A stretch of DNA of 33,759 nt. Origin: an uncultured Clostridia bacterium. GTDB lineage: Bacteria > Bacillota > Clostridia > Christensenellales > Borkfalkiaceae. The notes beneath the pieces were generated by a model. That model did not search any database. It saw only the letters and a list, made by a program, of their open reading frames with translations, and was not told the DNA's origin. Made by a program: the position numbers and the translations under genes. Shown piece after piece: positions 1 through 29,990 of this stretch. Each line of letters starts with the position of its first letter. The stretch's first letter is position 1. The DNA lies in the NCBI GenBank assembly GCA_947629345.1, contig CANRDK010000005.1, forward strand, positions 1 through 33,759. Direction: 5' to 3'.

Positions 1-489
1 CCTATCCCTCACGCATATAACTCTGTCATTTGAACCATCCACTTTTGTTTCAAAAAATTGCCCCAGTTTCGGGGAGTTGTACGAAGTCAATGCCCCCTCC
101 CGAGGAGGGGGGTAGGGGGGTGGGCAACGACCGCAGTCTGTGTCCGCCCCGCGAGATTCTTCGAGTTAGTCTCCGTCCTTTCGTCCTTCTTGCGTTCTCA
201 GAATGACGCGGGGCTGCTCCGTAAGTTTACGAGATCCCCTCGCTACGCTCGGGATGAGGGAAGGGCGGGGAGCTTGCTTCCCCTTGTAGGGGAAGTACCC
301 GCGCAGCGGGGGATAGGGTTCCAAAACCCCTCAGCCACGGCAAGGGCAGCCGTGCCAGCTCCCCTAAGAGGGGAGCCGAGGAGAGCCCGAACGGAGTCCA
401 TGCCCCCTCCTTGGGGAGGGGGTAGGGGGCGGGGACGTTCTGAATCCCCCCACCTCAATTTTTAATTTTTAATTTTAAATTTTGAATTC
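1..489. repeat. Intergenic repeat mosaic upstream of the first terminator
   Basis: No gene is supported here. The stretch holds a family B hairpin element near 90-130 (CCCCTCC/GGAGGGG followed by G runs), a family D-like stretch around 150-250 ending in GCTACGCTCGGGATGAG, an inverted family A element at about 273-381 and a second family B copy at 399-436. An A/T tract of TTTTTAATTTTT type at about 459-486 then leads into the terminator of the minus-strand aminopeptidase gene. The two ORFs listed here (58..465 and 243..458) only translate these repeats, which recur in most other spacers of the window, so they are not called. Bases 1-60 show nothing recognisable. Confidence 0.8.
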
Positions 490-8273: not shown

Positions 8274-8316
8274 TTTTCGCCCCCGCGCTCATTCCTCTTG
8301 CCCGCCCCCTGCGTAA

Positions 8317-8338
8317 GGGGGCGGGGTAGGGGTGGGGG
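8317..8338 (+). other. G-quadruplex motif in a family C element
   Basis: The pattern is five G, one base, four G, TA, four G, one base, five G, which meets the usual criterion for an intramolecular four-tetrad quadruplex with loops of 1, 2 and 1 bases. The upstream half of the same element forms a GCCCCCT/AGGGGGC hairpin sharing the first G run, so the two structures would compete. Confidence 0.7.
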
Positions 8339-8534
8339 TACGCCCTCGAACGCAGTCTGCACGGGAGCCTGTTCCCTCATTCCGAGCCCCGAAGGGGCGA
8401 GAGAATCTCGCTCTAAGAACGGAAGTCCGTAAGTTTACGAGATCCGCTCGCTTCGCTACTTCGCGCCAAGGACGGCGCTCGTGCCGCGCTTAGACACAAA
8501 TAGAACGCGCGCGGGGCGGGATGAGGGTGGGCGG

Positions 8535-8657
8535 CCCGAACGGAGTCCCCTTGCTTCCCCTTGTAGGGGAAGTACCCCGAACGGAGTCCCCTTGCTTCCC
8601 CTTGTAGGGGAAGTACCCCGAACGGAGTCCCCTTGCTTCCCCTTGTAGGGGAAGTAC
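8535..8657. repeat. Three tandem 41-bp hairpin-core units
   Basis: The unit starting CCCGAACGGAGTCCCC and containing CTTCCCCTTGTAGGGGAAG occurs three times with a strict 41-bp period (starts 8535, 8576, 8617) and then runs into one complete family A element. There are no variable spacers, so this is not a CRISPR array. Confidence 0.85.
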
Positions 8658-8784
8658 CCCGAAGGGGGGATAGGGTTCAAAAACCCCTCAGTCACTGTGT
8701 GACAGCTCCCCTAAGAGGGGAGCCAAGGGACCCCCGCCACAATTTTTAATTTTATTCTAAATCGCAACATAAGTGTGAAATTTT

Positions 8785-16668: not shown

Positions 16669-17751
16669 ATGAAAAAAATCGCACTCATCGGCTGCACGGG
16701 CAGCATCGGGCGGCAGACGGTGGAAGTCGTCCGCTCTCACAGGTCAGAATTTTGTTTTACGACGCTCGTCGCGGGAAGCGACAGGGCGGCGCTTTCCGCG
16801 CTTGCGGCTGAATTCAAGCCCAAGATTGCCTGCCTCGCCGCGGAAATTCCCTCGCACTCCGCCCTCTTTGCGGATGCCGACGTCGCCCTCATCGCCGCGG
16901 GCGGCTTTGCGGGACTTCGCTACACCCTCGCCGCCATCGAGGAGGGAAAGACGGTCGCCCTCGCCAACAAGGAGAGCTTGGTGTGCGGCGGCGAACTCGT
17001 CATGAGCGCGGCAAAGCGCAAGGGCGTGGATATCATTCCCGTGGACAGCGAGCATTCCGCCCTCTTCCAGTGCCTCGGCATGCGAAGGGATACCCCCTTC
17101 AAAAAGCTCATTCTCACGGCGAGCGGGGGCCCGTTTTTGCGCTATAACCCTGAAATTTTGGGGAATGTGACCGCCGCCGACGCCCTCCGCCATCCCACAT
17201 GGAAGATGGGGGCAAAGATCACGATCGACTGTGCGACCCTCCTCAACAAGGGGTACGAAGTCATCGAGGCGAAATGGCTGTACGGGGCGGACTTTTCGCA
17301 GATTCAAGCCGTTGTGCACCCCGAGAGCATTGTCCATTCCCTCGTTCTCTTCGAGGACGGCGCCATGCTCGCCCAACTTGGCTATCCCGATATGAAGCTC
17401 CCCATTCAGCTTGCCCTCACCTACCCCAAGCGGCTCCCCTGCTGCGAAGAGGTGGACCTTGCCAAAGTGGGAACGCTGCACTTTGAGCGGCTGCCCGAGG
17501 AAAAATTCCCCTGCTTCGGCCTCGCAGTTCAGGCGGGAAGGGAAGGGGGGACGGCTCCCACCCTCCTCAACGGGGCGGCGGAGGTCGCCGTGCAGGCCTT
17601 TCTGCAGGGGAGAATAGGATTTTTGAACATTGCGAAGACTATTGAAGATGTTCTCAGCCGCATTCCAACCGAAAAGGCAGAGAGCTACGGAACGCTTTCC
17701 CGTGCGGATGCGCGGGCGCGGGAGGAGGCGCGGCGCTTGATCGATGGATAA
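16669..17751 (+). CDS. dxr: 1-deoxy-D-xylulose 5-phosphate reductoisomerase
   Basis: A 360-residue DXR, the NADPH-dependent second enzyme of the MEP isoprenoid pathway, which feeds IPP to UppS encoded just upstream. The NADPH site is IGCTGSIGRQT, ALANKESLV and PVDSEHSA give the metal and substrate residues, and TASGGPF, HPTWKMGAKI and LLNKGYEVIEAKWLY complete the family set. Length is slightly below the usual 380-400, with all catalytic blocks present. No Shine-Dalgarno lies before the ATG (CGTTTTCAATCCCT); no better start exists because the N-terminal motif begins at residue 1. It overlaps rseP by 8 bases. Confidence 0.95.
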   Translation: MKKIALIGCTGSIGRQTVEVVRSHRSEFCFTTLVAGSDRAALSALAAEFKPKIACLAAEIPSHSALFADADVALIAAGGFAGLRYTLAAIEEGKTVALANKESLVCGGELVMSAAKRKGVDIIPVDSEHSALFQCLGMRRDTPFKKLILTASGGPFLRYNPEILGNVTAADALRHPTWKMGAKITIDCATLLNKGYEVIEAKWLYGADFSQIQAVVHPESIVHSLVLFEDGAMLAQLGYPDMKLPIQLALTYPKRLPCCEEVDLAKVGTLHFERLPEEKFPCFGLAVQAGREGGTAPTLLNGAAEVAVQAFLQGRIGFLNIAKTIEDVLSRIPTEKAESYGTLSRADARAREEARRLIDG

Positions 17752-19171
17752 TCTCATGAGCGTGTGGAGCACGATCGGCTCGGTCGCGCTCGCCATTCTG
17801 ATCCTCCTCGTCATGATCACCATTCATGAACTCGGACACTTTATCGCGGGGAAGATCTTAAAATTCAAGATCGATGAGTTCTCGATCGGCTTCGGCCCCC
17901 CGCTCGTCAAGCTCGAGTGGAAGGAAACGGGGCAGATCTTTGCCGTGCGGCTCATTCCGCTCGGCGGCTACTGCGCTTTCCACGGCGAGGACGGCTTGGA
18001 AGAGGAGCCCACCCCCCTACCCCCCTCCACAGGAGGGGGCGAAGAAGGGGACCTCAACGGAGGGGGCGAAGAAGGGGACCTCGATGTTTCTTGCCCTCCC
18101 CCTGCGTCAGGGGAGCCCGATGTTTCTTGCCCTCCCCCTGCGTCAGGGGAGACGCCGTCTTCTTGCCCTCCCCCTGCGTCAGGGGAGACGCCGTCTTCTT
18201 GCCCTCCCCCTGCGTCAGGGGGAGGGGTAGGGGAGGGGGTCCGCCCCGAGCCTCAACCTGAGCCCAAGCGTCACTGGACGGACGACGGCGACTTCACCAA
18301 CATGAAGCCGTGGAAGCGCATCATCGTGCTCGTCGCAGGCGCAACGATGAACTATCTTTTGGCCCTCCTTCTCATTCTCATCGAATTTTTTTCATACGGG
18401 CAGACCATGCTCGCCGTGTATGAGACCGAGGAGGCGACGGGCGAATACGCCGCCTACAGTTTACAGGATTTCGACATTTTCCTGCAGGCGGAGGGAAAGG
18501 ATCTCTACCTCACGACGGACATTGCACAGGCCCTCAACGGCAAAAAGAGGGGGGATCTCGTTGAAATGCGCGTCTCACGCGCCATCGGCCTCACATGGGT
18601 CGAGGACAAGGAGGGAAACCTCGTCCGCGACTACGACCATCGTGAGGACATGGACATTCAGGTCATGCTGCGCGAGGACGTGACCGTCAAAAACAGCGCC
18701 GATTTGGACTGCGTATGGCGTGCGCTCGGCATCAAATACAGCGAGACGGACGAGACTTACATGCTTGCGAACGGCCTGCATCACCTCTCCTTCTTTGAGA
18801 CGATCGGAAAGTCCTTTGTCTATTCCTTCAAGCAGGCGGGGTCCATTTTCAGAGTCCTCGGGGAGCTCCTTACGGGGCGGCTGGGGATCAATGCCATCGG
18901 CGGGCCCGTGACGACGATCACGATGACGTCGCAGATCGCATCGCAGGGATTCCGACAGTTTTTGGAAATTTCCTCCCTCATCGGCGTGAATTTGGCCGTG
19001 TTCAATCTATTGCCCATTCCCGCCCTCGACGGCAGCAAGGTGGTTTTCACCGCCATCGAGTGGATACGCGGAAAGCCCATTTCCCGCAAGATCGAGGCGA
19101 TCATCCACGCCGTGGGATTTGTCCTTCTCATCGGTTTTGCGATCTTGGTGGACATTTTGCAATTCGTATAA
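17744..19171 (+). CDS. rseP: RIP-type site-2 zinc protease with in-frame repeat insertion
   Basis: A 475-residue intramembrane metalloprotease of the RseP/RasP family, which cuts membrane-anchored anti-sigma factors and leftover signal peptides. HELGH (residues 28-32) lies in the first membrane span, and the distal NLLPIPALDG motif is at 421-430 with the third zinc ligand. Between the conserved RLIPLGGYCAFHGEDG and the KPWKRIIVLVAGATMNYLLAL span lies an alien segment of about 83 residues (88-170), with repeats of SCPPPASGE and GGGEEGDL type. Its DNA is a composite of the family B and C elements that fill the spacers of this window. By family topology this loop is cytosolic. The gene remains open and all motifs are kept, so the protein is probably active. 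The start overlaps dxr by 8 bases. Confidence 0.93.
   Translation: MDNLMSVWSTIGSVALAILILLVMITIHELGHFIAGKILKFKIDEFSIGFGPPLVKLEWKETGQIFAVRLIPLGGYCAFHGEDGLEEEPTPLPPSTGGGEEGDLNGGGEEGDLDVSCPPPASGEPDVSCPPPASGETPSSCPPPASGETPSSCPPPASGGGVGEGVRPEPQPEPKRHWTDDGDFTNMKPWKRIIVLVAGATMNYLLALLLILIEFFSYGQTMLAVYETEEATGEYAAYSLQDFDIFLQAEGKDLYLTTDIAQALNGKKRGDLVEMRVSRAIGLTWVEDKEGNLVRDYDHREDMDIQVMLREDVTVKNSADLDCVWRALGIKYSETDETYMLANGLHHLSFFETIGKSFVYSFKQAGSIFRVLGELLTGRLGINAIGGPVTTITMTSQIASQGFRQFLEISSLIGVNLAVFNLLPIPALDGSKVVFTAIEWIRGKPISRKIEAIIHAVGFVLLIGFAILVDILQFV
18005..18256 (+). repeat. Family B+C composite inserted inside rseP
   Basis: The first part matches family B (CCCACCCCCCTACCCC, then GGAGGGGGCGAAGAAGGGGA twice with a 27-bp period). 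The second part is a series of four CTTGCCCTCCCCCTGCGTCA cores with a strict 36-bp period (starts 18090, 18126, 18162, 18198). Only the last core keeps the G-rich tail ending in GTCCGCCCC, as in the intergenic copy at 8296-8346. Both periods are multiples of three, so copy number can change without breaking the frame. Confidence 0.9.
18218..18239 (+). other. G-quadruplex motif inside the rseP coding sequence
   Basis: Five G, A, four G, TA, four G, A, five G lie on the coding strand, so the mRNA carries the motif too. It is the tail of the last family C copy in the insertion and directly follows a CCCCCTGCGTCAGGGGG hairpin. Confidence 0.72.
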
Positions 19172-20940: not shown

Positions 20941-21192
20941 AAAAGGTGTTGTATCCCCGCCCCCCCTACCCCCCTCCCCAAGGAGGGGGCAAAGGCTCCC
21001 CCCTCGGGGGGAGCTGTCACGCAGTGACTGAGGAGGGGCATGTGCTCCCGTTGGTTTAATGGGATCCTTCGCTACGCTCAGGATGAGCGCGCGGGGCGGG
21101 ATGAGAGGACGGGGCAAAGGCTCCCCCCTCGGGGGGAGCTGTCACGCAGTGACTGAGGAGGGGAATCGCGTTCGATCCCACAGTAGTAAAAC
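20941..21192. repeat. Repeat block between thiT and yqfC with a 52-bp direct duplication
   Basis: A family B copy (about 20956-20990) is followed by two essentially identical 52-base segments (20986-21038 and 21112-21164), each holding CTCCCCCCTCGGGGGGAG and GTCACGCAGTGAC hairpins (family A first half). A family D element (about 21049-21088) lies between them. No gene is present. Confidence 0.82.
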
Positions 21193-28181: not shown

Positions 28182-28440
28182 GGGGACAGTCAGAACTCGT
28201 TGCCCACCCCCCTACCCCCTCCTCGGGAGGGGGCATGACTGCGTTCGGGCGAGGACGGACTCTTGGCTCCCCCTTTGGAGGGGGAGCTGTCACGCCGCCC
28301 TTGGCGTGACTGAGGGGGTGTCGTATCATTCAGGGCGTACCCCCACCCCTACCCCGCCCCCTTACGCAGGGGGCGGGCAAGAGGAGCGCACGAGGCGGAA
28401 TGACGCGGCGCAGGGGGCGGGCAAGAGGAACACTCAAAAC
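28182..28440. repeat. Repeat mosaic before the asparaginase gene (families B, A, C)
   Basis: A family B copy (about 28199-28237), a family A first half with the long stem GTCACGCC-GCCCTT-GGCGTGAC (28262-28320), and an inverted family C element (about 28334-28384) with a partial second copy (about 28411-28430) fill the gap. No gene is seen; the ORF 28165..28461 is a translation of the repeats. Confidence 0.84.
28340..28361 (-). other. G-quadruplex motif, minus strand
   Basis: On the minus strand this is five G, one base, four G, TA, four G, one base, five G, identical in pattern to the motif at 8317-8338. It belongs to the inverted family C copy before the asparaginase gene. Confidence 0.7.
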
Positions 28441-28475
28441 CAACAACATAAAATCCGATGACGGAGGCATACAGC

Positions 28476-29465: not shown

Positions 29466-29850
29466 GGGGGCGCTCATCCTGCCCGTGCTCATCCTGAGCG
29501 TAGCGAAGGATCCCGTTAAACGCACGGGGGCAATTAAAAATTGTGGTGGGGCATATTTAGAACAACACCCCCTCAGTCAGCCGCCCTTGGCGTGACTGAG
29601 GGGGTGTCGTATCATTCAGGGCGTACCCCACCCCTACCTCCCTTACGCAGGGGGCAGGCAAGAGGAAGGGCAGAATGACGCGGCGGCACTTGCTTCCGTT
29701 GGTTCAATGGGATTCTTCGCTGCGCTCAGAATGAGCGGTTGAGCGCGTGGGGCAGAACGACGCGGCGGGCGGGGTGGATACGGACTGCCTCGTGGGTGGC
29801 TAAAATGGCATAAATTTACAAAAAGTGCTCAAATCTAATAGAAAGAGGGG
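29466..29850. repeat. Spacer asparaginase-lipoprotein: D, A, C elements
   Basis: Family D copies (29472-29530 and about 29693-29740) surround a short A/T tract with the border TTGTGGTGGGG, a long palindromic family A variant (29566-29606) and a degenerate family C copy whose G runs are broken (about 29619-29664). From 29740 to 29850 no repeat or gene is recognised. Confidence 0.75.
29566..29606. repeat. Long perfect hairpin, family A derivative
   Basis: CACCCCCTCAGTCA and its exact complement TGACTGAGGGGGTG flank an inner GCC-GCCCTT-GGC, giving a 14-bp plus 3-bp stem with a single bulged base. It looks like a family A first half whose first hairpin has been lost so that the outer arms pair directly. 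Confidence 0.8.
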
Positions 29851-29854
29851 CGGG

Positions 29855-29892
29855 ATACGGAAAGTTATAAAAATTCCGTATAAAATTTTTTT
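29855..29892 (+). terminator. Candidate terminator upstream of the lipoprotein promoter
   Basis: ATACGGAA and TTCCGTAT form a perfect 8-bp stem around an 11-base A/T-rich loop, followed by AAAA and a run of seven T. It would stop read-through from the asparaginase side just before the next promoter. The large loop and the four A before the T run lower confidence. Confidence 0.5.
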
Positions 29893-29903
29893 CAGCAAAG
29901 CTG

Positions 29904-29932
29904 TTGACATGATAAAAAATTTGTTGTAGAAT
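29904..29932 (+). promoter_or_regulatory. Promoter of the lipoprotein gene
   Basis: A perfect TTGACA and TAGAAT are separated by 17 bases. The leader of about 50 bases ends in AAGGGGGAAAG just before the ATG at 29991. Confidence 0.85.
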
Positions 29933-29990
29933 AAGTACGCCATTCATAAGGTGGCAAAGAATAAATATCAATTTCATAAGGGGGAAAGAC

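Follow-up and report, generated by a model that had tools for sequence, protein, structure and literature searches.

A high-copy repeat with the layout of a class II intrastrand triplex, carried in frame by protein genes of an uncultured Clostridia bacterium

Triplex-type repeats of bacteria have been known since about 2000. The class II intrastrand triplex is built from a pyrimidine arm, a purine arm and a reverse-Hoogsteen arm (Holder et al. 2015, PMC4666352), and the TM_ECO elements of E. coli are always intergenic (PMC4666352). Holder et al. studied by NMR a triplex of a 3-tetrad-type sequence, used a CD buffer with only millimolar K+, and did not detect a stable triplex in vivo with DMS (PMC4666352). 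Competition among hairpin, triplex and quadruplex has already been described in elements of this kind from E. coli and archaea (PMC4666352, PMC8044849): a switch between G-quadruplex (G4), hairpin and duplex was proposed for E. coli (Kaplan et al. 2016, as cited in PMC8044849), and archaeal C-tract elements become G4 once annealed in K+ (Chashchina et al. 2021, PMC8044849). In these archaeal elements, G4 and triplex pass into each other depending on K+ and annealing (PMC8044849).

The element described here, TM-1 (family C of the initial annotation), occurs in the window, i.e. the whole stretch of 33,759 nucleotides that was analysed. Its parts follow one another as a C arm of nine nucleotides, the loop TGCGT[A/C]A, a purine arm, TA and a second, mirror-image G arm; C arm, first G arm and second G arm make up a Y-R-R mirror repeat (Table 1). 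CCC[G/T]CCCCC pairs with the first G run and the next GGG over 9 bp, or 10 bp counting the T:A pair of the loop, confirming the hairpin that the initial annotation had described as sharing the first G run. The three copies of G5-N-G4-TA-G4-N-G5 that it reported, at 8317-8338(+), 18218-18239(+) and 28340-28361(-), are all exact; the first reads GGGGGCGGGGTAGGGGTGGGGG, and the second, inside the ORF at 17744-19171, reads GGGGGAGGGGTAGGGGAGGGGG. A fourth copy, noted as broken near 29619-29664, lies at 29620-29664(-) and does have interrupted G runs (GGGAGGTAGGGGTGGGG). The unit is about 65 bp long, with conserved flanks reaching far past the G runs, and its consensus from 62 copies in the first 1.08 Mb is TCCTCTTGCC[C/T]GCCCCCTGCGT[A/C]AGGGGGCGGGGTAGGGGTGGGGGT[A/C]CGCCCTCAAACGAAGTC. 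An Rfam search of the window gave no match. A loop-tail pseudoknot (GCGTA:TACGC) is disfavoured, the C subtype breaking two of its five pairs.

We consider it likely that TM-1 is a high-copy repeat of the class II intrastrand triplex type, unstable through its structure and tolerated in frame within proteins. When the strand becomes single during replication, transcription or repair, the C arm would pair with the purine arm, and the second G arm could lie antiparallel in the major groove, forming the third strand; in potassium, a four-tetrad quadruplex could compete.

Table 1. Positions of TM-1, TM-2 and their host ORF in the window.
Feature	Position	Strand	Context
C arm of copy 1, 5' hairpin strand, CCCGCCCCC	8301..8309	+	smc-ftsY intergenic
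Loop 1, TGCGTAA; 5 nt if its T and final A pair	8310..8316	+	
Purine arm, partner of the C arm, GGGGGCGGGG	8317..8326	+	
TA turn from purine arm to third strand	8327..8328	+	
Third strand, mirror image of the purine arm, GGGGTGGGGG; T faces a C:G pair	8329..8338	+	
Conserved 3' tail of the repeat unit, TACGCCCTCGAACGCAGTC	8339..8357	+	consensus of copies
Complete TM-1 copy, C/T subtype, upstream of asparaginase-like ORF	28340..28377	-	intergenic
Degenerate TM-1 copy, GGGAGG deletion subtype, third strand shortened	29620..29664	-	
rseP ORF (M50 / RIP metalloprotease), holds the coding copy	17744..19171	+	TIGR00054
Three tandem 36-bp half-units, head and hairpin, third strand deleted; 12 aa each (SCPPPASGE...)	18090..18197	+	
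Complete coding TM-1 copy, A/A subtype, CCCTCCCCC-TGCGTCA-GGGGGAGGGG-TA-GGGGAGGGGG	18202..18239	+	
TM-2 element in the same rseP linker, antisense, PTPLPPSTGGG	18009..18040	-	
TM-2 copy, CCCCCTCC-TTGG-GGAGGGGG-TA-GGGGGCGG, same Y-R-R layout as TM-1	392..434	+	
TM-2 copy	20957..20990	-	

Abundance and mirror symmetry

The sequence GGGGGNGGGGTAGGGGNGGGGG has 114 exact matches in the genome (62 forward and 52 reverse), and a reversed-pattern control with 0 mismatches allowed gave 0 matches across 41 genomes. When units were sought in 1.08 Mb by their 5' half alone, all four G runs were kept in 52 of 66 full-length units, contrary to the prospect, raised initially as a possible refutation, that most copies would be interrupted; 12 further units were short, with the third strand lost. 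The genome count against shuffled sequence, also proposed there, was run on class II triplex motifs with an ITxF-like finder (stem 9, at most 1 mismatch) and gave 82 motifs in 1.08 Mb versus 0 in two full dinucleotide shuffles. The triplex-type motifs of the genome sort into two large families, TM-1 and TM-2. Leaving the interrupting bases N1 and N2 free in the search, 709 exact-run copies were found in 36 of 103 congeneric genomes, and the element was found in 0 of 16 other families sampled. The sister species G059, which is about 93-95% identical to this genome in aligned gene blocks, has 2 exact copies versus 114 here. Units with flanks identical to those of another congener, G042, were seen in contigs of uncultured Clostridia.

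Among the 709 copies, the N1/N2 pair is A/A in 456, C/T in at most 223 (by subtraction), A/C in 16, A/T in 11, C/A in 2 and T/T in 1, a table that two subfamilies explain in part, as the copies share descent. In both C/A copies the C arm is mispaired or displaced. The TM-1 core has six variable columns in this genome, where the column pairs (-2,23) and (5,16) both fit the mirror relation i+j=21, and (-13,5) is a stem pair; stem changes are compensated, G:C to T:A (61/6), with no mispair. Columns -2 and 23 covary with a Fisher p of 1.8e-10 (5e-8 in the C/T copies alone), from counts that are not phylogenetically independent; they form an identity pair in the loop and are not themselves a canonical triad. 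In the window these columns are 8315 and 8340, a loop base and a tail base in mirror placement, and they carry A/A or C/C together. The nearly invariant T at column 22 faces an invariant A:T pair of the loop, giving a canonical T.A:T triad. C opposite the A:T pair, a non-canonical triad that counts against a triplex, occurs in 16 copies of the genus and 33 TM-2 copies; some subfamilies show it often. In triplex chemistry, T is the purine-motif choice that is best tolerated opposite a C:G inversion. The position of the G-arm interruption varies by family (5/4, 4/5, 6/3, 3/6) and is nearly always mirrored in the third strand.

Four-tetrad quadruplexes with loops of 1-2 nt are very stable. The element might be a switch between hairpin and G-quadruplex, in which function rests with the four-tetrad G4 and the C arm acts as competitor strand (cf. 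Kaplan et al. 2016), a reading that we regard as unlikely. It would agree with the four runs of 4-5 G kept by 52 of the 66 full-length copies, with RNA energy rules that include quadruplexes, which prefer the G4 (-54 vs -34 kcal/mol), and with the archaeal C-tract relatives that turn into G4 after annealing in K+ (PMC8044849). However, neither the mirror symmetry nor the mirror covariation is needed for a G4, and only 2 of 102 four-tetrad motifs lack a C arm. The triplex appears to be favoured, because two loop bases that a G4 would leave free covary at mirror positions, and because the 5' C arm is present at 100 of 102 four-tetrad motifs, whatever the loop.

TM-2 follows the pattern CCCCCTCC...GGAGGGGG-TA-GGGGG[T/C]GG. 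When it was sought by its hairpin alone, a mirrored third strand followed 78 of about 85 hairpins, and a G4 motif is absent from 37 of these 78; TM-2 elements with a CGA loop retain the third strand without any G4 motif, which also speaks against the quadruplex switch. Of the hairpin/quadruplex switch suggested by the initial annotation, the hairpin joined to G4-capable runs is real and a competition of folds is reasonable, but the feature constant in all related families is a hairpin bearing a mirror-symmetric third strand, not four G runs. Since sister families keep the mirrored third strand without the G4 motif, we read the Y-R-R constraint as that of a triplex: as judged from sequence, the conserved architecture is a triplex architecture, and the fold itself may form in the cell.

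In other phyla (Caulobacter, Ruminococcus and Thermomicrobiales), only A/T, A/A and C/T were seen as N1/N2 among the matches listed, with a complementary stem base although the pattern was free at N1 and N2. This set comprises only matches with non-G at N1, N2 and loop 2; most of the genome-collection matches listed were G/C homopolymer runs at contig ends and were left out. Among the same matches, a 10-nt mirror triplex layout is found with a CA turn at three loci in Caulobacter and with a TT turn at two in Ruminococcus, and it is also found at one in Thermomicrobiales.

Turnover of the element

TM-1 also occurs as tandem arrays of 88-89 and 138 bp, as units with a deleted third strand, as GGGAGG deletion variants and as inverted dimers. 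At L025, near 5279(-), and L031, near 1640(+), the third strand is replaced by an inverted dimer of the head (CTCTTGCCCGCCCCC...GGGGGCGGGCAAGAG), as expected from snap-back copying. The fold would stall polymerases and promote slippage, template switching and repair, and such stalling would explain the tandem half-units, the third-strand deletions, the inverted dimers and the fast turnover of copies. The tandem, deletion and dimer forms would fit polymerases that slip or switch template at a stable fold, as has likewise been argued for TM_ECO (Holder et al. 2015, PMC4666352). We infer both a triplex in the cell and an instability driven by that structure.

Compared with the sister species, the intergenic DNA of this genome seems to have turned over almost completely; because of this, no clean target-site duplication was obtained from the intergenic comparison of the two. 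At window positions 8274-8784, 28182-28457 and 29466-29989, the two species carry differing palindromic repeat families in the same places, and at L247:10607-12197 the sister species has a serpin-like ORF (assigned by eye) where this genome has only repeats.

A second alternative, also improbable in our judgement, is a mobile element of REP or RPE type defined by its hairpin only, in which a transposase reads the stem and the G-rich tail is a passenger. Conserved flanks on the repeat unit, a volatile copy number, clean in-frame insertions with empty sites and a GTAG tetranucleotide adjoining the stem would all suit such an element, but GTAG lies 3' of the hairpin and not at its 5' foot, and the G-rich tail of TM-1 is conserved as strongly as the stem. 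No RAYT/Y1_Tnp transposase (PF01797) was found in this genome, which is 97% complete, and in the genus its presence does not track element copy number; a RAYT/IS200 link was rejected on these two grounds. Taking the triplex reading further, the element might multiply in this genus without a transposase, its own structure provoking copy-and-switch errors, and might be steered into one coding frame to become a recurrent peptide cassette in core enzymes, a proposal that we hold to be distinctly doubtful.

Copies inside protein genes

Of the 77 TM-1 copies here, a simple gene call (83% coding) assigns 10 to called genes and 50 to the spaces between them; the other 17 are at contig edges. The six well-supported internal copies are all in sense orientation and in one frame, encoding (S/T)CPPPASGGGVG[E/V]GVR, and their hosts are RseP, MetG (between the anticodon and tRNA-binding domains), TatD, RsmF, DusB and a protein of 445 aa that has no Pfam match; Lgt, at a contig edge, ends in the same peptide. 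Relatives carry in-frame copies in TatD, MetG, RsmF, DusB and a copper-type P-ATPase (CopA-type), as found by a one-frame protein search, the frame bias being judged on this genome only. In the P-ATPase of one congener (L307:1584-4214(-)) the in-frame element comes just after the phosphorylation motif DKTATLT. Coding copies must have the loop GCGTCA, because GCGTAA is an in-frame stop. The A/A copies are few in this genome and mostly coding, and the C/T copies are nearly all intergenic. Among in-ORF copies found at the protein level, the DNA core is intact in 25 of 27 although GGG makes up only 23% of glycine codons, so these copies would be young, homogenised or constrained.

Occupied and empty sites are found among close relatives. 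In DusB, the distance between anchors is 18 nt in G042 (empty) versus 144 nt here, where a second triplex family accompanies TM-1; the same spot holds a different palindrome (SAHPERSEGS) in two further congeners, G068 and G047. The contents of this DusB spot are in frame at all four loci compared, which would make it a hot spot or else a highly permissive loop. At the TatD site most species have 48-57 nt; in G010, where a single TM-1 is present, the length is 99 nt, and in this genome it is 210 nt. Insertions are tolerated between genes, or in protein linkers and loops if in frame and free of stops, as SCPPPASGGGVGEGVRP.

The rseP copy at 18202..18239, which translates as CPPPASGGGVGEG, sits in the linker joining spans 1 and 2. 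The initial annotation had suggested that it could pause translation there; as a regulatory element steering the membrane insertion of RseP, it is very improbable. In its favour, the mRNA sense strand is the G-rich strand, the copy lies between the two spans, and rseP carries the element in six species, but the linker is hypervariable in congeners (acidic/proline), and that of G059 (90% aa identity) has no element and another insert instead. The same cassette is moreover found in MetG, TatD, RsmF, DusB, Lgt and CopA, mostly soluble and unrelated enzymes. The pausing idea thus gains no specific support, and the rseP copy is one of several in-frame insertions, not a special one. That the repeat is an assembly or low-complexity artefact is a negligible prospect: the assembly is fragmented and of metagenome type (171 contigs), but the 114 copies have different flanks, the frames of the host genes are open and the element is present in 36 congeneric genomes.

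With hundreds of natural copies that covary at two mirror positions, and a sister family that has lost the G4 and kept the third strand, it becomes testable which fold is constrained, be it triplex, quadruplex or hairpin. The in-frame copies in MetG, RseP, TatD, RsmF and DusB mean that such elements also reshape proteins, for which the empty and occupied alleles of close relatives are ready controls.

Comparison with known systems

The GGGNATC repeats of Xanthomonas and Nostoc (PMC4692102) are abundant and G4-capable like TM-1, but are heptameric tandem repeats without a C arm. With the GTAG/CGTC REPs (Di Nocera et al. 2013, PMC3733652), TM-1 shares short palindromic interspersed units, tandem and inverted arrangements, and some intragenic copies; assignment to the GTAG REPs was rejected, as its GTAG is on the 3' side of the stem, at the turn leading to the third strand, rather than at the 5' foot, and the genome has no RAYT. 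TM-1 resembles the Rickettsia palindromic elements (Ogata et al. 2000; PMC2229807) in being palindromic and inserted in frame in conserved protein genes of several species, with empty sites in relatives; it is set apart by size, the coding insert being about 50 bp (unit about 50-65 bp) against Rickettsia palindromes of 105-146 bp (PMC2229807), and by its triplex/G4 layout.

As in the E. coli switch (Kaplan et al. 2016, as cited in PMC8044849) and the Methanomicrobiaceae PQS (PMC8044849), so far as these are described there, a G4-capable repeat is joined to a complementary C tract, and hairpin, triplex and G4 would likewise be in equilibrium. TM-1 has the four G runs and the loops of 1-7 nt of a potential G-quadruplex. 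In the Methanomicrobiaceae PQS, which are intergenic, the C tract is on the 3' side, whereas the C arm of TM-1 is 5' (PMC8044849).

The closest likeness is to the class II, TM_ECO and PIT elements (Hoyne & Maher 2002; PMC4666352), with which TM-1 shares the 5' C arm, purine arm and 3' G-rich third strand, 9-nt stems, interspersed and over-represented copies (82 vs 0 against scrambled sequence), hairpin-preserving deletions and a copy number strongly variable between close relatives. The order of its arms is that of the class (pyrimidine, purine, reverse-Hoogsteen), and its 9 triads lie within the stem range of 6-15 with at most one mismatched triad, the A/A subtype having none and the C/T subtype one (T.C:G). 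Against the ITxF rule of 1-6 nt, loop 2 measures 2-4 nt and loop 1 measures 7 nt with a 9-bp stem or 5 nt with a 10-bp stem. TM-1 differs from these elements in its sequence, in a first loop that is longer, at 7 nt (5 when the T:A pair is counted in the stem), and in its TA turn with runs of 4-5 G, T opposite a C:G inversion, its clostridial host and its coding copies. It is not a TM_ECO element, since its arms and loops differ from the consensus CCCTCNCCC-N3-6-GGGNGAGGG-N3-GGGNGAGGG, and since TM_ECO is always intergenic, whereas TM-1 has coding copies in RseP, MetG, TatD, RsmF and DusB. TM-1 would work like the class II intrastrand triplex repeats and appears to belong with them, its loop length being borderline; the clostridial host, the 9-10 bp version, the protein-coding copies and the mirror covariation as evolutionary evidence are new here.
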